Shown one piece after another: positions 7,888 through 45,421 of a stretch of 50,317 nucleotides of DNA. The notes under the pieces are model-generated. The model saw only the letters and a program-made list of their open reading frames with translations, had not been told where the DNA came from and did no database searches. Position numbers and translations under genes: made by a program. Source of the stretch: a virus; IMG/VR virus record IMGVR_UViG_3300035188_001652, positions 1 to 50,317 of that record; one strand, 5' to 3'. Position 1 is the stretch's first letter, and each line of letters begins with the position of its first letter.

Positions 7888-7978
7888 TATGTTATATAAA
7901 ATAAATTTTATTTTACAATCTACCAATAGAGACATTACTTGGTTTACAGTAAAATAGTTGTTGCATAAAAAAATCAAA

Positions 7979-10900
7979 ATGTCAGAAGATTTTGGTGCGT
8001 TGACTGGCAATCCAGTGTTCTTTAGAACATACAGCAGATTAACAGGACACGGGAGAGAGTCATGGGAGGAGATGTGCAAACGTTCCGTTGACGGATTAGC
8101 AAAGCTGGGGAAATTTACCCCAGAAGAAATAGAACTAGTCGCCAGAATGCAGAAAAGCATAAAAGCATTGCCATCTGGAAGATGGCTATGGGTAGGCGGC
8201 ACAGAGTGGCTGGATAAGCCACAGAATTACAGTGGAGCATACAATTGTACATCCACAAATTTAACCAACTGGGATGCTTTTGCATTCATGATGGATTTAG
8301 CCATGATGGGATGTGGCACAGGCGCTGTAATTGAGCCTAAATATTATCAGCAATTACCTACCATCAAAAATACAATAAACATTGAGATTATTGACAAAAT
8401 AGGCGAAACCCCACCATCTGAAAGGCTGGACGAGACAGTAACTGTCTTGACAGAAGACAGTTTTACGATAAAAGTCGGAGACAGTAGACAAGGATGGGTG
8501 GAAGCATACAAGCAATTACTTCAAGTAGCTTCTGATGACACCTTTGATGGAGTTGTGGTAGTCAAAGTGTCATTAGCCAATGTACGCCCTGCTGGGGAGA
8601 AATTAAAACAATTTGGTGGTGTTGCCAATCCAGTGAAATTAGAGAATTTGTTTTATAGATGTGCAAACATCTTAAACAAAGCACATGGTAGAAAACTAAC
8701 GTCACTGGAATGCTGCTTGCTGATTGATGAAGCAGCAAGCACTATAGTGGCTGGGAACATTAGACGCTCAGCGGGCATGCGCCAGTTCACTTCTAGTGAT
8801 AACGTAGCTGCTAACGCTAAAGCAAATCTATGGGAGCAAACACCAACTGGAGAGTGGAGAATAGATCCAGAGAAAGATGCTTTGCGCATGGCAAATCACA
8901 CCAGAGTTTTTCACCAAAAGCCTACTTATGAGGAGGTGTTTGATTCAGTAACGAGTCAATATTGGAGTGGTGAAGGAGCAATTCAATGGGCGGGTGAAGC
9001 TGTCGCCAGAGCAAATGCAGATTTATTGATTACCCAAAAACTAAAAGCAAAGTTTTTGAATGCTTACGAGAATGGTGAAGCTAAGCAATGGATAAGAAAG
9101 CATTATCCAGACATGCCACATGCGGAGATAGAACATAGAGTAAGTACATATGGATTAAATCCATGTGTTACTGCTGATACATGGATTCACACAGAGAAAG
9201 GAGCGAGGCAAGTTAAAGACTTGATAGGCAAACAAACCAGTGTTTACGTTGATGGAGAATTATTTAGCACCACACCTGAAGGTTTTTGGCTAACAGGAAT
9301 CAAGCCTGTGCTAAAAGTAATTACTCAAGAAGGATATGAGTTGCGTTTAACTGACAATCATCAGTTACTCAAAGTTACTGCTCAGACTCAGCGTAAACAA
9401 TATTCTGAATGGACTGAAGCTAAAGATTTAAGCCCAGGGCATTATATTTCAGTCCATAACCATCGTGAAGCACAGCATTGGGACAGTTTTGGAACTTTTG
9501 ACGAAGGCTGGTTAATTGGCAATTTAATTGGCAATGGCAGCATCTCATCAACACAATGGGGGAAAACAGCACTTTTGCGATACTGGGAAGATTCTCAAGA
9601 GGAAATGGGAAAACATGCTGTTGCTCTACTTAAAAAAACTGTTGATTATGCCGGAACTACAGAATCTGGGTATTACCATGAACAGCAGAATTATCGAGTA
9701 GTCCAATCAACGGGATTAGCTAGATTAGCTGCTAGTTATGACGTTACGCTAGAGAACAAAATGCCAACAGGTAAAATCGAAGAAGCAAGTTATGAATTTT
9801 ACCGTGGTTTTTTACGTGGCTTATTTGATGCTGATGGGAGCGTGCAAGGAAATCAACAAAAAGGCATTAGCATCAGATTGTCACAAAGCAATCTAGAGAC
9901 TTTGAAAATAGTCCAAAGAATGCTGGCGAGATTAGGTATTATCTCAACAATTTATCAAAAAGCACAACATGAACTTGTTATCAGCAATGATAATGTCTGC
10001 GTCTTCCAAGACATTATTGGATTCCAGAAACCTGACAAAGCAAATCGTTTAAATGAATTAATTAACGGATACAAACGAAAATTAAATCGTGAGCGATTTG
10101 TAGTTAAAATCAAAGAGATTATACCCGATGGAGTAGAAGCAGTTTTTGATTGTACTGTTCCGGGAGTTTCTCGATTTGATGGTAATGGAATTGTCACCCA
10201 TAACTGTGGTGAAATTATTGGTAGCAATTTCCACTGTGATCTTGGGGACATACACTTAAATCAGCTCAATCCTACTGACTACAAAGAGCAAGAAGATGCT
10301 TTTAGAGCAGCTTCACTCTCAGTAGCTGCATTGCTTCACCATAGATTCACCGAGCCTATTTATCAAGAATCTAGAGAGTTAGATCCTATTGTTGGTGTTT
10401 CCTTCACCGGATTATTTGACTTTTTTGTTCATGCTTTTGGAGCAGAATGGCTTCACTGGTGGCAACAAGAGAGAGAAGACAATGAGCAAGGCAGGATATT
10501 TAAACAAAAAGAACAGGAGTATTTATCTAGATGGAAAGACATAGTACATCAAACTGTTTGGGAATATTGTGATAAACACAATCTTAAACGTCCTAATCGT
10601 TGTACTACTGTCCAACCCAGTGGGTGTCTAGATCGCACCGCATTAAGAATTTTTGATCAAGGCTTACTTTATGCGGATGAATTGATAGCACCTGGCAGTG
10701 GTGAAGCTACTGATTTGAAACTAAGTGTTCGTGAAGGAGTGTCTGTCACCACAGGAATTGCTAATCAACCATTGCAATTGATTAAAGTTACATTAAACAA
10801 TGGACGTGTTTTACGTATGACTCCAAACCATCGTCTTTCTATTGATGGAAACTGGATTTATGCGTCTGACATGACTCCTGGAATGAAGATTGATTTTAGT

Positions 10901-12418
10901 CTTGGGGAATATCAAAACAGCCAAGAGACTTCACTACTTGATATAGATCAATTTAGCTATACAAGAGAAGCAAAACAATTAGAGTCTGGGCATAATCGTG
11001 GTGGCATCACAGCAACTATCATTAAAACGCCCAAGATAATGTCTCCTGACTTAGCTTATTTTATCGGAGCATTATTTGGAAATGGATGTTTAAGTGCAAC
11101 TGGACATCGTATTAGGTTTTCTAGTAATAGTTATAAATTGCTAGAAAGACTACAACAAATAGCACAAAATCTGTTTGTTTTAAATGGGAGAATCAACAAA
11201 TACTCTGACAGAGAAGCTTATGAATTAAGCATTTCTAGTGTTCAGCTTTATGATTGGTTGCAATTGAATGGAATAGCTAAAACAGAGAAAAGTCTAAATC
11301 TTGACAGAATACCATTAGCTATTCGTTGTTCCTCCAAGCAAAGTATTCTATCGTTCTTCTGTGGATTGATTGACACTGATGGATGCATTAGAGTTAATGG
11401 CTCAATGTCCATTGACAGCGCTAGTGAAGAGTTCATTAGAAACCTTCAACAAATAGGTGAAGCTGTAGGATTGTGTTTCTCCGTATTCCATAACACTGAA
11501 GGGGAGAACAACCAAGCACAGAAAAATATGTGGGGTTTATGTTTAAGCCGCATGTTATCTAAACCTGATGCTTTAGATTATCTAAACGAAAATAGTCAAA
11601 AAGCTGAGATTCGTCCTATTCCTTCACTCAAGAGAAGTTATAAATTTGATCCATATCTCATTGAATCTGTGGTGTGGGAAGAAACTCCTGACTACAGCTA
11701 CGACTTTGCGGTGCAAGGAGAGGACGATAATGATTCATGGTATTGGCAAGGAGCGATTAAATCACATAACACAAAGTCTTTGTTAACTGGCGCTTCCCCT
11801 GGTTGGCATCCTCCCAAAGCACAACAATTTATCCGTCGGATTACTTTCCGTAAGAACGATCCAGTAGCATTGGCATGCATAGACTTTGGATATAACGTAG
11901 TTCCATCACAATCAGATAAAGATGAAAATGGTAACTTATTAGACAATCCTTTTGATGAACGTTGCACAGAATGGTTAGTAGAAATACCAGTAGCAGTATC
12001 TTGGGCAAATCTACCAGGAGTTGATGTTGATATTTCTAAATTCTCGGTGTTGGCACAGTTTGATTTTTATATGCAAGTGCAGAAGTATTACACAACTCAT
12101 AATACTTCAGCCACACTTGAACTACGCCAGAACGAAATTGGTGCTTTAAGTAGAGCTATATATGACTCAATCAAGAACAATGACGGGTATATTTCTGCTG
12201 CTATCCTTAGTCGCTTTGATGATTTCCAGTCTTATCCTAGATTGCCTTTTGAGCCTATTAGCAAGGACAAATACTTGCAGTTGGTAGAAGAAGTAAACCA
12301 AAGAAGAACTAATGATTCTTTCTTAGATGCTTTGCATAAGTATGACAATGGGTTTGATGAACAATCAGGCCCTGCCCCATGTGATTCAGACAAGTGTCTT
12401 TTACCAGAGTTAAAGTGA
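7979..12418 (+). CDS. nrdJ: Class II (B12-dependent) ribonucleoside-triphosphate reductase with two inteins
   Basis: Precursor of 1479 residues encoding a mature reductase of about 750 residues after removal of two inteins (9164-10204 and 10625-11770). It reduces ribonucleotides to deoxyribonucleotides using adenosylcobalamin, supplying DNA precursors for phage replication. The mature protein matches monomeric class II enzymes of the Lactobacillus type: YNCTSTNLTN (redox Cys), NPCGE (radical-bearing Cys and Glu, first residue after intein 1), PSGTKSLLTGASPG (phosphate-binding, intein 2 before the Thr), and a C-terminal Cys pair CDSDKC for thioredoxin-linked regeneration. ATG 7979 is chosen over an upstream in-frame TTG at 7958; neither has a good ribosome binding site. 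The TPR gene overlaps its stop. Confidence 0.95.
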   Translation: MSEDFGALTGNPVFFRTYSRLTGHGRESWEEMCKRSVDGLAKLGKFTPEEIELVARMQKSIKALPSGRWLWVGGTEWLDKPQNYSGAYNCTSTNLTNWDAFAFMMDLAMMGCGTGAVIEPKYYQQLPTIKNTINIEIIDKIGETPPSERLDETVTVLTEDSFTIKVGDSRQGWVEAYKQLLQVASDDTFDGVVVVKVSLANVRPAGEKLKQFGGVANPVKLENLFYRCANILNKAHGRKLTSLECCLLIDEAASTIVAGNIRRSAGMRQFTSSDNVAANAKANLWEQTPTGEWRIDPEKDALRMANHTRVFHQKPTYEEVFDSVTSQYWSGEGAIQWAGEAVARANADLLITQKLKAKFLNAYENGEAKQWIRKHYPDMPHAEIEHRVSTYGLNPCVTADTWIHTEKGARQVKDLIGKQTSVYVDGELFSTTPEGFWLTGIKPVLKVITQEGYELRLTDNHQLLKVTAQTQRKQYSEWTEAKDLSPGHYISVHNHREAQHWDSFGTFDEGWLIGNLIGNGSISSTQWGKTALLRYWEDSQEEMGKHAVALLKKTVDYAGTTESGYYHEQQNYRVVQSTGLARLAASYDVTLENKMPTGKIEEASYEFYRGFLRGLFDADGSVQGNQQKGISIRLSQSNLETLKIVQRMLARLGIISTIYQKAQHELVISNDNVCVFQDIIGFQKPDKANRLNELINGYKRKLNRERFVVKIKEIIPDGVEAVFDCTVPGVSRFDGNGIVTHNCGEIIGSNFHCDLGDIHLNQLNPTDYKEQEDAFRAASLSVAALLHHRFTEPIYQESRELDPIVGVSFTGLFDFFVHAFGAEWLHWWQQEREDNEQGRIFKQKEQEYLSRWKDIVHQTVWEYCDKHNLKRPNRCTTVQPSGCLDRTALRIFDQGLLYADELIAPGSGEATDLKLSVREGVSVTTGIANQPLQLIKVTLNNGRVLRMTPNHRLSIDGNWIYASDMTPGMKIDFSLGEYQNSQETSLLDIDQFSYTREAKQLESGHNRGGITATIIKTPKIMSPDLAYFIGALFGNGCLSATGHRIRFSSNSYKLLERLQQIAQNLFVLNGRINKYSDREAYELSISSVQLYDWLQLNGIAKTEKSLNLDRIPLAIRCSSKQSILSFFCGLIDTDGCIRVNGSMSIDSASEEFIRNLQQIGEAVGLCFSVFHNTEGENNQAQKNMWGLCLSRMLSKPDALDYLNENSQKAEIRPIPSLKRSYKFDPYLIESVVWEETPDYSYDFAVQGEDDNDSWYWQGAIKSHNTKSLLTGASPGWHPPKAQQFIRRITFRKNDPVALACIDFGYNVVPSQSDKDENGNLLDNPFDERCTEWLVEIPVAVSWANLPGVDVDISKFSVLAQFDFYMQVQKYYTTHNTSATLELRQNEIGALSRAIYDSIKNNDGYISAAILSRFDDFQSYPRLPFEPISKDKYLQLVEEVNQRRTNDSFLDALHKYDNGFDEQSGPAPCDSDKCLLPELK
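9164..10204 (+). mobile_element. Intein 1 of NrdJ, 347 aa, with LAGLIDADG endonuclease
   Basis: Inserted just before the active-site Cys of NPCGE. It starts with Cys (CVTADTWIHTEKGA, block A), has block B with LRLTDNHQLL, and ends FDGNGIVTHN followed by the Cys +1 of the extein, so splicing residues are intact. Two LAGLIDADG motifs are visible, WLIGNLIGNGSIS and FLRGLFDADGSV; the second has the acidic residues of an active homing endonuclease, while the first has Asn at the acidic position (GNG), so cleavage activity may be weakened. Insertion at this catalytic site is a known intein location in reductases. Confidence 0.93.
10625..11770 (+). mobile_element. Intein 2 of NrdJ, 382 aa, with LAGLIDADG endonuclease
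   Basis: Inserted between PSG and TKSLL. It starts CLDRTALRIFDQG (block A), has LRMTPNHRLSI (block B) and ends WQGAIKSHN before the extein Thr +1. The endonuclease motifs are FIGALFGNGCLS and FFCGLIDTDGCI; again the first motif has Asn in place of the acidic residue. The splice-junction residues look functional. The two inteins differ in sequence and are independent insertions, not a duplication. Confidence 0.93.
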
Positions 12419-37200: not shown

Positions 37201-38333
37201 TGTAAATCACTCCAACTATCTGTAAATGTACAATTCCCTTCCATAACTCTAACAGTGTCTCCGTTATTCAATCTAACTAATATTTCATATCCATATTCTC
37301 CATCCATATCGTAAAATTCAGCGCTGTTTACGTATAATTCTAAACTAATTGTGTTGAATGGTATTACTCCAACCATGAATTTGGAATAAGGAGGGATGAT
37401 AACATTACCTTCGGGTGCCAAAAGTTTTACTGTTGGTGTAGTTAATGCGGTAGGAGGGATTCCTATAAAATTTTCCTTGAAAGCTACTGCTCCTACATAT
37501 TTCCATTCTTTATCAACATTAGAATAAGATTGAACATACAATCTTGTATTTGCAGTCATTGCGGGTAAACCTAAATACCAGCCTTGGATGCTTACATCTA
37601 CTCCTGTTGCATTAGTTGAGTTAATCGCTATATCCGCACTTCCGTTATTTAAGTAACCAACAGTATTTGTAACATAACAGTTGTAGCCATTAAGAGTGCC
37701 AGCGACAACTGTTTCTCTAATTCCAATACTTGTTTGTCCAGCATTTACAGTGTTTGCTACTGTAACTCCTGTAACTCCTGTTACTCCTGTACCATTTGTA
37801 AAAGCAAGTATACTACCAGCGGGGATTTGTTGAGTTACGCCTGTTACAGTTAACGCATTTTGTGTGTTGCTAGTTATATTTACGGTAAAACTGCTTGCTA
37901 CGTTAGCATGAAACGCAGCCACTGATGCAGAACGATTGAATATTCTAGCTTCACTAACTGTTTTAGTTGCATTAGAATTTAAAACAAGAGTAGAGTCAGT
38001 GACAGCATCTACTTTAGCAATTGCAACAGCGCCTTCAACAATTACTTTATCCCCAACTCTAACAGGCAGTAAAGACAATATTTTACTTTTGTCAGCTGTA
38101 GCAGGATATGCTTTAATTTGTACATTTGGGGTGTTAATTGTAGTAGATGCAGTAAATCGTTTAACTAAACTAAATCCCGGAGATTTACGTCGAACTTCTC
38201 CAAATACCAAAGCATTTGCAAAGTTCATGCCATAACTACCTGTTACAGTTAAATTAAATCTAGCTGTCTCACCTTTTTTAAGTAATAAATCTAATTTTTG
38301 TGTATTAAACTGAGGTTTAAATGGTTCAGTCAT
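37197..38333 (-). CDS. Tail/baseplate structural protein, 378 aa
   Basis: Beta-rich virion protein, family not named. It has KKGETARFNLTVTG near the N terminus, Ig-like or carbohydrate-module-like strands, and a short GVTGVTGVTV run (about residues 184-193) from a nine-base DNA repeat. Second gene of the minus-strand module, overlapping the HTH regulator by eight bases and the next gene by four. Probably a wedge or hub protein. Confidence 0.6.
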   Translation of the reverse strand: MTEPFKPQFNTQKLDLLLKKGETARFNLTVTGSYGMNFANALVFGEVRRKSPGFSLVKRFTASTTINTPNVQIKAYPATADKSKILSLLPVRVGDKVIVEGAVAIAKVDAVTDSTLVLNSNATKTVSEARIFNRSASVAAFHANVASSFTVNITSNTQNALTVTGVTQQIPAGSILAFTNGTGVTGVTGVTVANTVNAGQTSIGIRETVVAGTLNGYNCYVTNTVGYLNNGSADIAINSTNATGVDVSIQGWYLGLPAMTANTRLYVQSYSNVDKEWKYVGAVAFKENFIGIPPTALTTPTVKLLAPEGNVIIPPYSKFMVGVIPFNTISLELYVNSAEFYDMDGEYGYEILVRLNNGDTVRVMEGNCTFTDSWSDLQ

Positions 38334-38532
38334 AATCTAATTCCAATAAATAAGACGGACTAATTTCCAATACTTTAGCTATTTTTTTAATTAAGCAAGC
38401 ACGTTTAATTCCATTACTTTCCGCCCTAACGAGAGTCATGCGGCTAACTCCAATACAATTTGCTAGTTGTTGGCAACTAAAACCTTTTTCAATTCTACAT
38501 TTTTTTAAATAGCTTCCCTGCCTTTTGGACAT
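38326..38532 (-). CDS. Small XRE-family HTH regulator of the fibre module
   Basis: 68 residues consisting almost only of an XRE/Cro helix-turn-helix: YLKKCRIEKGFSCQQLANCIGVSRMTLVRAESNG, then IAKVLEISPSYLLEL. It is the first gene of the minus-strand adsorption operon and overlaps the first structural gene by eight bases, so the regulator and tail proteins are co-expressed. The divergent region contains a perfect 11-bp inverted repeat (38595-38623) that is a likely operator. It may balance fibre and capsid transcription. Confidence 0.8.
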   Translation of the reverse strand: MSKRQGSYLKKCRIEKGFSCQQLANCIGVSRMTLVRAESNGIKRACLIKKIAKVLEISPSYLLELDYD

Positions 38533-38594
38533 AATTTAATACCATAAAAGATACAGCTACAATAATTATTGCCATTATAATTAGCGAGAATAGT

Positions 38595-42204: not shown

Positions 42205-42233
42205 TTGACAGCAATAAAATAGGATGCTATATT
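42205..42233 (+). promoter_or_regulatory. Promoter of the DUF3310 leader
   Basis: TTGACA (42205-42210), 17 bases, TATATT (42228-42233), in the extended context CTATTGACA. Expected start near 42240, about 150 bases before the DUF3310 ATG, leaving a long leader. Confidence 0.8.
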
Positions 42234-42312: not shown

Positions 42313-42363
42313 GCTCTAACTTACTAACTTGCAATAGCTACACCACACACAACACAAATGGGG

Positions 42364-42387: not shown

Positions 42388-42606
42388 ATGTCAAACGTAG
42401 ATCACCCACAGCATTACACAACAAGTTCAGTTGAATGCATTGATGCAATTGCAGCAGCTTTATCTCCGGAAGAGCTAAGAGGATTCATCAAAGGCAATGT
42501 CATTAAATACTTATGGAGAAGCGAACACAAGAATGGTAGTGAAGATTTACAGAAAGCTTTATGGTACTTAAATTGGTATGTCAATAAAATCAAAAATCCA
42601 TCATAG
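42388..42606 (+). CDS. DUF3310 family protein
   Basis: 72 residues matching the small phage DUF3310 family: DHPQHYTTSSVECIDAI, GFIKGNVIKYLWRSEHKNG and DLQKALWYLNWYV (family: NPxHY, GNAIKYLWR, DLxKAxWYL). The conserved His/Tyr/Lys/Arg positions are kept. The biochemical role of the family is not established, although it is widespread in phages. An upstream in-frame ATG at 42358 lies inside the hairpin and is less likely. The 3' end overlaps the converging sigma gene by 17 bases. Confidence 0.85.
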   Translation: MSNVDHPQHYTTSSVECIDAIAAALSPEELRGFIKGNVIKYLWRSEHKNGSEDLQKALWYLNWYVNKIKNPS

Positions 42607-43549
42607 AGTTTTTGTGTAATTTTCCATTTACCACCTTATATTGCTTTAGCCAGTTATAGGCAGTAGATTGGCAAACACCTAAATAGAGTTTGCACCATGC
42701 GAATGATTTGCCATTAGAAAGTGCGTTTAAGACTGTTATCTTGACATTCTCATCGTAAGAAGGCCTGCCAATTTGTAATGGATTTTCAACAAACTGACTT
42801 TGGCAACTTTTGCATAAATATTGCTGCCTATTTCCTCTTTTCCCGTTCTTGACAACATTTTTGCTTAAACAGCTAGGACAAACAACAATATCGTTGACTA
42901 CATTTTTAAGTAGTTCTATACCTTCAGATTCTAGTTGTTTAATTTGGTATACTGACAAATTTAATAATGACTTAATATCTTGTATTTTATAATCTTCAAT
43001 ATAAATTAATCTAAGTATTTGTGCGTGCTTGCTTGGAATTTTAGCTAGTATTATCTCTAATTCATCGATAGTAGAGTTATCAAAGTAACTGATTTCAGGA
43101 AGTTCTATGTGAATTTTATCATGAGCTATCGCAGCTTCTTTGGCGGTTAATTCTGAAATAGTCAAGTCCCTAGCTGATTGTTCATAAGTAATACCTTTCT
43201 TTTTAGCATTACGCATTATTTTCTGATAAATGTCTTGGATGTTCCTAGGGATTTTAACTAATCTGTCTTTGTCCCGCAGGAACATTAACATATATCCATT
43301 TATGAAAGGAACAGCAAAGCTGGACAGCTTTTTAGATTTCTCAGGATTATATCTTTCAATAGCTTGGATTAATCCTAGACACCCAATTTGTACTAAATCC
43401 TCTAATGGAACAGAGCAAGACTTCTGGACTTTTTGAGCAACAGAGTAGACAAGTCCTAAATTTTTTTCTACAATCTTATTTCTTATTTTTATGTCTTTAC
43501 TCTCGTAGTATTTGATTAGCAGCTGTTGGTTAACATCAAAATTCATCAC
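42590..43549 (-). CDS. Sigma factor fused to IS1-type zinc ribbon and helix-turn-helix
   Basis: 319 residues in three parts. Residues about 8-110 are sigma region 2: RNKIVEKNLGLVYSVAQKV, DLVQIGCLGLIQAIERYNP, FAVPFINGYMLMFLRDKD, typical of SigF/B/G-like factors. Residues about 160-215 look like region 4, with AQILRLIYIEDYKIQDIKS and an HTH. Residues about 222-252 form a zinc ribbon, CPSC...KNGKRGNRQQYLCKSC, as in the N terminus of IS1 InsA-like transposases, followed by a transposase-type HTH (about 258-302; YDENVKITVLNALSNGKS, then AYNWLKQY). It would direct RNA polymerase to phage late promoters, with the extra domain giving DNA binding. No transposase catalytic domain is attached. Confidence 0.82.
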   Translation of the reverse strand: MMNFDVNQQLLIKYYESKDIKIRNKIVEKNLGLVYSVAQKVQKSCSVPLEDLVQIGCLGLIQAIERYNPEKSKKLSSFAVPFINGYMLMFLRDKDRLVKIPRNIQDIYQKIMRNAKKKGITYEQSARDLTISELTAKEAAIAHDKIHIELPEISYFDNSTIDELEIILAKIPSKHAQILRLIYIEDYKIQDIKSLLNLSVYQIKQLESEGIELLKNVVNDIVVCPSCLSKNVVKNGKRGNRQQYLCKSCQSQFVENPLQIGRPSYDENVKITVLNALSNGKSFAWCKLYLGVCQSTAYNWLKQYKVVNGKLHKNSMMDF

Positions 43550-43620
43550 ATTAACACAAATGTTACATATTTATGTTACTTTAAAAATGGCAACTTTATA
43601 GGTAAACTATTCAGGAAACT

Positions 43621-44028
43621 ATGAAAGCTATTTGGAATAAAAATATTAATATTTCCCCTAAAACTGCTACTTATACTTGGAGTGCAAATTACGCTCCTAT
43701 TGTTCATGAAGGCGGTACAAGAAAGGATGGGAGTGATTTTCCTGCTCGTCCCTGGGTTTGGAGAACCGTAGGATTAAATGGACAGGAAAGACGTTATGAT
43801 ATTGTACAAGATTTTAATGATAAAATACGTACAGCGAATAGTTTCGATCAATTGTTTGAGGACATTGCAAATAAACTTGATAGTGAATTTAGGAAGACTA
43901 TAGAAGCTGAAATATTTACATGGGATGCAGCGACAAAAAGGAAAAATAAATTTACAGTTACGACTCCAAGAGATATTGTTGATTTAGGATTTTTAAGAAA
44001 CTCTCAATCTAAGTCTATACAGCCATGA
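43621..44028 (+). CDS. Putative HK97 gp10-like tail completion protein
   Basis: 135 residues. It contains YAPIVHEGGTRKDGSDFPARPW, split here as NYAPIVHEGG and FPARPWVW, the pattern of gp10/tail-completion proteins (YA..vHfGt and ipaRPF). An AGGA site precedes the ATG. It overlaps the next gene by four bases. Such proteins join the tail to the head or help end tail-tube growth. Confidence 0.65.
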   Translation: MKAIWNKNINISPKTATYTWSANYAPIVHEGGTRKDGSDFPARPWVWRTVGLNGQERRYDIVQDFNDKIRTANSFDQLFEDIANKLDSEFRKTIEAEIFTWDAATKRKNKFTVTTPRDIVDLGFLRNSQSKSIQP

Positions 44029-44399: not shown

Positions 44400-44437
44400 T
44401 CTTGGCAACTATTAAGAAAGAAATATAGGGGATTTAT

Positions 44438-45421
44438 ATGCCTTTAGCAACTAGTTCTTTAATATTACAGAATACAAGCTTAGATTTGATTTTATTACCA
44501 CTTGATGCAAATTATGGTGTACCTAGTCGTACAGTTTCTTTTGCTACTTTAGCGTTGGAGCAAGCACAAATTATTGGAGATACCTCTATTAGTGTTTTAT
44601 CAAGCACTGCAAACACTCCTGTTTTTTTGCGCCAAGGAACTTCTTTATCATTTAGTGGTAATACTGCTGCTCCATTTAGGAGGCAAGTAATTGTCAATGA
44701 AGACAAAGTTGTTGGGACATCAGCTACTACTTTAAGTGTGACTCCTTTGTTGCGTCCTCTCGTTTTTGGAAGCAATCCAATAGGAAGAGCAATTGTTCCT
44801 TTTGTGTCTAATCACGCTAATTTAGAAATTACGGCATGTAGCACGACTAATAATTCATCAACTATTACTACTACTAACTCTTTTGTCGACGTTGAAGTTG
44901 GTGATTTTGTTACTGGTGGTGCTGGCACTGGAATACCAACTAATGCGTATGTTGTGTCAAAAGCAAGTAATACGTCTTTAACTATTAGTGCAAATGCAAG
45001 TGCCACTGGCAGCGAAGTTGCTTTAACTTTTATTTCTCGTGTTACTCCAACACCATTAACTGGTATTCAAACACTTGATTTAAATAATCAAGAAACTCAA
45101 GTTGATACTACTCATTTTGGCTCTGGCGCTGGCACTGAAGCTGCAATTGTTAGATTTAATAGAAGCTACTCAGCATCTGGCATTGCGTTAATTGGTGATG
45201 AAGCGCTAGAAAGAATTGTAAAAAGAGTAGCTGGTTTTGACAATGCTTTCTTAGGCAGAGAAGTATATGCTGTTTCAACCACCTCAGATGGTGAATCTAT
45301 TCATGGTGTTGCAAAAATTATGGCATTAAACTTGCCTGCTAACCAAAACGAAGTTAAGAAATACTCTTTTACATTAATGTATCAAGGCAATGCTGCTTGG
45401 GTACAACCTTACTCTTATTAG
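44438..45421 (+). CDS. Tail tube-like protein, paralogue 1
   Basis: 327 residues. The C-terminal 120 are nearly identical to the next gene: GIQTLDLNNQETQVDTTHF, NRSYSASGIALIGDEALE, then VAKIMALNLPANQNEVKKY and SFTLMYQG. This follows the beta-sandwich pattern of major tail tube proteins. An extra segment of about 75 residues (about 125-200) is absent from paralogue 2 and may be an exposed Ig-like insert. A strong ribosome binding site precedes the ATG. Confidence 0.7.
   Translation: MPLATSSLILQNTSLDLILLPLDANYGVPSRTVSFATLALEQAQIIGDTSISVLSSTANTPVFLRQGTSLSFSGNTAAPFRRQVIVNEDKVVGTSATTLSVTPLLRPLVFGSNPIGRAIVPFVSNHANLEITACSTTNNSSTITTTNSFVDVEVGDFVTGGAGTGIPTNAYVVSKASNTSLTISANASATGSEVALTFISRVTPTPLTGIQTLDLNNQETQVDTTHFGSGAGTEAAIVRFNRSYSASGIALIGDEALERIVKRVAGFDNAFLGREVYAVSTTSDGESIHGVAKIMALNLPANQNEVKKYSFTLMYQGNAAWVQPYSY

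Follow-up and report, generated by a model that had tools for sequence, protein, structure and literature searches.

A sigma factor tells RNA polymerase where to start. Region 4 of the factor contacts the −35 element, and the normal sources of specificity are regions 2 and 4 or separate activators. The sigma factors of two Cylindrospermopsis phages, CrV-01T (AXK90437) and Cr-LKS4 (WHL30591), lie at the same head-completion locus, and in the same strand relation to it, as the protein studied here, which is encoded in the window, i.e., the whole 50,317-nucleotide stretch (50.3 kb) of the virus record IMGVR_UViG_3300035188_001652. These two proteins share 46% identity with the window protein over residues 2–218, but they are 225 amino acids long and stop right after region 4, without its ribbon or HTH tail. 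The SigF/SigB/SigG-type (group 3) sigma factors have regions 2 and 4 and region 3-like helices in common with the window protein and provide its best NCBIfam and PDB matches, but no match of the SigF/SigB/SigG models reaches into the ribbon-HTH tail.

The tail itself resembles the N-terminus (InsA) of IS1 transposases, which also consists of a zinc ribbon and an HTH. Unlike IS1, however, it is without the DDE catalytic part (insB) and is fused behind a sigma factor, and its HTH carries a W-C-x-x-Y-L signature that is absent from the IS1 sequences aligned. InsA requires both its ribbon and its HTH to bind the ends of IS1, and it is a repressor of the IS1 promoter (PMC12428005). CorE-type ECF sigma factors are also followed by a Cys-containing tail, but the metal-sensing end of CorE, an ECF factor, has 38 residues (PMC3107203), whereas the window protein is SigF/SigB-like with region 3-like helices and a transposase-type ribbon-HTH tail of about 100 amino acids, and it is not of the CorE type. 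A plasmid C5 methyltransferase of Pseudanabaena sp. PCC 7367 (positions 1544–2773 of NC_019690) carries the IS1 ribbon-HTH module at its C-terminus like the sigma tails, but it is an enzyme and not a sigma factor, and its tail is nearer to IS1 than the sigma tails are. This second recruitment of the IS1 module suggests that the module is taken up by other DNA-acting proteins as well. The part of an account of jumbo-phage sigma factors drawn on here mentions no ribbon fusion (PMC7824862), and no description of a sigma-InsA fusion was found in the portion of the open literature covered, nor did one appear in the part of the chromosomal sigma factors searched.

Architecture of the sigma-tail protein

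The protein is encoded by a single open frame on the minus strand. The initial annotation had read this frame as sigma region 2, a region 4-like segment, a zinc ribbon and a transposase HTH; its location is right, the strand, which it left unstated, is minus, and all four parts are recovered by the Pfam and NCBIfam profiles. The features are as follows.

42590..43549, minus strand, sigma factor with C-terminal IS1-type tail, 319 amino acids (GTG start at 43549; ATG is codon 2)
43262..43474, minus strand, sigma-70 region 2, residues 26–96 (Pfam PF04542, E = 3.3e-17)
43121..43246, minus strand, region 3-like helices, residues 102–143 (AlphaFold2 model and alignments with SigF/SigB models)
42905..43048, minus strand, sigma-70 region 4 with HTH, residues 168–215 (Pfam PF04545, E = 9.7e-7)
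About residues 200–218, minus strand, region-4 recognition helix (model helices)
42800..42886, minus strand, InsA/IS1-type zinc ribbon, residues 222–250 (Pfam PF03811 above cut-off; NF050000, E = 1.7e-12)
42632..42760, minus strand, transposase-type HTH, residues 264–306 (IS1 transposase model, hhalign and AlphaFold2 model)

PF04542 (Sigma70_r2) scores 62.5 bits (cut-off 24) and PF04545 (Sigma70_r4) scores 28.7 bits (cut-off 24.1), and PF03811 (Zn_ribbon_InsA) narrowly passes its cut-off of 26.1, with 26.5 bits on the whole protein and 29.1 bits on the tail alone. The ribbon Cys are C224 and C227, and C246 and C249, with the spacing CxxC-x18-CxxC. NCBIfam models of the SigF/SigB/SigG type match about residues 8–150 with E values from 1e-40 to 1e-21, and the SigF/SigB models align up to about residue 137. 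The curated cut-offs of the group 3 models are missed (PRK07408, 139.8 versus 261 bits; TIGR02980, 106.6 versus 234), and SigF/SigB/SigG, at scores below these cut-offs, appears to be the nearest sigma type. The profiles over residues 1–215 are clearly those of sigma factors, which answers the concern, raised by the initial annotation, that this part might show no sigma similarity.

For the tail, the NCBIfam IS1 family transposase model covers both ribbon and HTH (E = 4e-14), and the IS1/IS1595 Zn domain model also matches (E = 2e-12). When a profile of nine sigma tails was compared by hhalign with cyanobacterial IS1 N-termini (six sequences, namely five IS1 N-termini and the one methyltransferase tail), the alignment spanned ribbon and HTH over 81 columns with 33% identity (E = 3.3e-24). 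The tails are basic, with a net +7 to +15. These results bear out the proposed IS1-type ribbon and transposase HTH, and the profile evidence firmly supports an architecture of sigma regions followed by an IS1-type ribbon-HTH tail.

Structure prediction, suggested earlier as a check, points the same way. The AlphaFold2 model of the window protein (mean pLDDT 78.6, pTM 0.39) contains the helices of sigma regions 2, 3-like (residues 102–118, 122–128 and 133–143) and 4, followed by ribbon strands (232–254), three HTH helices (267–303) and a beta hairpin (304–313), with moderate confidence in the tail part (pLDDT about 55–84). The best PDB matches found by Foldseek are sigma factors or complexes containing them. 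The tail model of a long-form relative has the same ribbon and HTH plus an extra helical hairpin; Foldseek with this tail model gave nothing significant, the top match being the IstA transposase (E = 0.06).

Three forms of the protein and the history of the tail

The protein family occurs in three forms: the window's form of 311–319 amino acids, a long form of 369–373 amino acids with the extra helical hairpin, and a tail-less form of 222–227 amino acids. Near-identical copies of the window protein (99–100% identity) are found in several separately assembled contigs, and diverged tailed relatives share 63% identity (L010, L011 and L017), 50–54% (L037) or, among the long forms (L102–L110), 41–49%; L190 is a tailed relative available as a fragment only. 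The tail-less form is found in CrV-01T, Cr-LKS4 and contigs L097–L101 at 45–46% identity. Relatives with as little as about 45% identity therefore retain the same domain order, but the Cylindrospermopsis phages, which are tail-less, do not have it. These are the closest annotated phages to the window virus, in keeping with an earlier guess that it is a cyanophage.

The tail is found in at least eight distinct lineages, and all four Cys and a GKS-xx-WC / W core are kept in all sampled and aligned tailed lineages; the long forms L102, L103, L104 and L107 score under the PF03811 cut-off. In the middle-length (window's) and short forms, the sigma gene sits within one shared set of head-completion genes, in antisense orientation. 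The long forms have it divergently oriented to a homolog of one head-completion gene, and L190 has it on the head-completion strand. When viral contigs were scanned by the tail signature, this sigma family was recovered together with one weak match, to an unrelated protein whose ribbon is similar. A search for a cellular parent among 84,980 species by sigma-part patterns yielded nothing beyond ordinary sigma factors, with matches that end by residue 219. The alignment of PHROG_351 up to residue 304 was rejected as a sign of the tail in other annotated phages, because the tail alone has neither a PHROG_351 match nor a tblastn match among 50,697 phage records.

Some further features of the long-form phages were observed. 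The last ~60 residues of the sigma factors in L102–L110 fall into two exchangeable allele classes, and the hairpin predicted there weakly matches phrog_1454 (E = 8e-4 in L103). A ParB-like gene (5975–6952 in L106 and 5975–6907 in L104) overlaps the long-form sigma gene at its stop, as if co-transcribed. Aphanizomenon phage CL131 has one protein in common with a long-form phage, and its annotation lists no sigma factor.

In a midpoint-rooted tree of three neighboring proteins, the window and L010 join the tail-less clade (100/100), followed by the tailed L190, with the long forms outside; in the sigma-domain tree, the three forms do not separate in a clear order. Every clade except the tail-less one carries the tail, so that a single loss in the Cylindrospermopsis-phage clade would be the simplest history; in view of the midpoint root and the sigma-domain tree, the tail may possibly have been transferred between phages. 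The tail is older than the split of several phage lineages. The initial annotation had also proposed domestication of an IS element, which our comparisons support as ancient homology only. The IS1 transposase model NF033558 scores 52.9 on the window protein (cut-off 100), and no DDE/insB remnant is present at the window locus, where the next gene overlaps the stop and leaves no room. A recent IS insertion was rejected, as there is no insB, there are no inverted repeats flanking the sigma gene, and each record has one InsA match and no second InsA domain.

Selection, block exchange and the proposed role of the tail

Between the window and L010, the tail is 66% identical and the sigma part 63%, so that the two are about equally conserved; synonymous sites are saturated in this pair. 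In closer long-form pairs, dN/dS is mostly 0.04–0.09 in the sigma part (0.23 in one comparison with almost no changes) and 0.16–0.31 in the tail. These ratios show that purifying selection acts on the tail, and that in long-form pairs the tail evolves faster than the sigma part.

The strongest observation is an exchange seen when the long-form contigs L107 and L108 are compared. In L107 coordinates, the region from 2877 to about 8700 has 0–1 differences per 150 columns outside the sigma gene, and the gene is flanked on each side by about 2.5 kb of almost identical sequence. Within the gene, codons 1–203 are identical, and about 100 bases differ, all from codon 204 on. The identity is 72% in the recognition helix, 83% in the ribbon, 98% in the HTH and 67% in the C-terminus. 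This contrast shows that the recognition helix and the tail have been swapped as a block, as seen in metagenome contigs, for which a chimeric assembly is possible; L109 equals L107 over 9.7 kb. The low identity in the recognition helix, ribbon and C-terminus indicates that what was exchanged is, for the most part, the portion of the protein that would be expected to contact DNA.

On these comparisons, we consider it reasonably probable that the protein is a late sigma factor of the phage that carries its own second DNA-binding module, derived from a transposase. Core RNA polymerase binding and initiation are predicted: a SigF/SigB-type phage sigma factor would bring the host RNA polymerase to the promoters of the phage, and most likely to the late ones that serve virion genes. 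Its C-terminus would have captured the DNA-binding part (InsA-type zinc ribbon and HTH) of an IS1-family transposase. With region 4 at −35, the module directly behind it would lie beside the −35 contact and reach the DNA immediately upstream. It would thus serve as a built-in activator through which promoter choice is made tighter or is shifted. The initial annotation had suggested that the tail adds sequence-specific DNA binding; this is plausible and is strengthened by the L107/L108 cassette swap, although the DNA contact, like the promoter position and the late-gene role, is what we infer. Because the tail is kept in many relatives and is sometimes swapped as a block, it probably helps these viruses choose their own promoters. 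A more far-reaching proposal, that a family of phage sigma factors reads promoters with three DNA-contacting parts, the third from IS1, and that late transcription is re-targeted by swaps of the helix and tail cassette, is tentative. The tail-less sigma factors at the same locus in Cylindrospermopsis phages count against a built-in activator, indicating that not every such phage needs the tail.

The tail might instead be a regulatory or docking module, i.e., a metal or redox sensor or a binder of a phage co-activator, clamp or anti-sigma factor, and the extra predicted hairpin of the long form could bind a protein. C-terminal Cys-rich extensions can switch sigma activity, as in CorE (PMC3107203), but the CorE extension has six Cys in its 38 residues, whereas the sigma tail combines CxxC-x18-CxxC with an HTH in about 100 residues. 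The IS1 match spans the HTH as well as the ribbon, and the tail is basic and was exchanged together with the region-4 recognition helix, all of which make this reading unlikely. A tail that binds DNA but mainly represses or targets, holding the sigma factor on phage sites such as its own divergent promoter, seems quite unlikely: no site was found, and conservation tracks the sigma gene rather than one neighbor arrangement, as the same-strand order in L190 indicates, even though InsA is itself a repressor (PMC12428005) and only 71 bp lie between the sigma gene and the divergently oriented gene at 43621. Absence in the Cylindrospermopsis phages and faster evolution than the sigma part would be expected of a leftover of IS capture that hitch-hikes on the sigma factor with little function, but such a leftover is very improbable given the open frame, the Cys and core residues kept throughout, and dN/dS well under 1 where measurable. 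An assembly or sequencing error joining two genes, also considered in the initial annotation, is refuted, because the fusion recurs intact in separate and diverged contigs (99–100%, 63% and about 45% identity), and the one frame break inside the sigma gene, in L037, is in a contig that breaks other genes too.

If the late sigma reading is true, a fused transposase DNA-binding module would make a natural activator built into a sigma factor, and a case of transposon domestication in phage gene control. Versions with the tail, with a longer tail and without it, all at one locus, form a natural test set, and L107 and L108, a near-identical phage pair differing in the DNA-reading end, are natural test material.

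Promoters and neighboring genes in the window

Canonical TTGACA-N17-TATAAT promoters in the window are found before early and middle genes and before almost no virion genes, so that another specificity is needed there; this scarcity fits a phage late sigma factor. A canonical host-type promoter is present within the virion-gene block at 42205 on the plus strand, upstream of a small gene at 42358, and a similar one is found at the same place in the related genome G004. We have also noticed a candidate late-promoter motif at two sites.

43589..43594, plus strand, (T)GGCAAC, candidate late-promoter motif preceding the gene at 43621 (a lead only)
44404..44409, plus strand, (T)GGCAAC, candidate late-promoter motif preceding the gene at 44438 (a lead only)

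A diverged copy, AATGGCAATTAT, is present at the orthologous site of G004, corresponding to that before the gene at 44438. GGCAAC is the top 6-mer at −22..−52 of starts in the window-clade genome, with 7 seen versus 0.42 expected (P = 3e-7 uncorrected; about 1e-3 after correction for the 4096 words tested). It is weak in the L010 clade and, in the same enrichment test, not enriched in tail-less or long-form phages, and because of this weakness or absence in other clades it should be considered a lead only as a late promoter motif. No motif could be linked with the tail.

Upstream of the capsid gene is a conserved block that could not be told apart from a small divergent Cro-like gene. This gene, at 38327–38533 on the minus strand, encodes 69 amino acids, and its homolog at the same place in Cr-LKS4 is annotated as Cro/C1-type; the block upstream of it is common to the window, G004 and L037. 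Elsewhere in the window, a ribonucleotide reductase frame of 1486 amino acids (7958–12418, plus strand) has three separate matches to the reductase and an endonuclease match at residues 1026–1166, and probably contains an intein. The Cr-LKS4 record (OQ625504.1) has annotated CRISPR arrays at 87526–88160 and 88835–89093.
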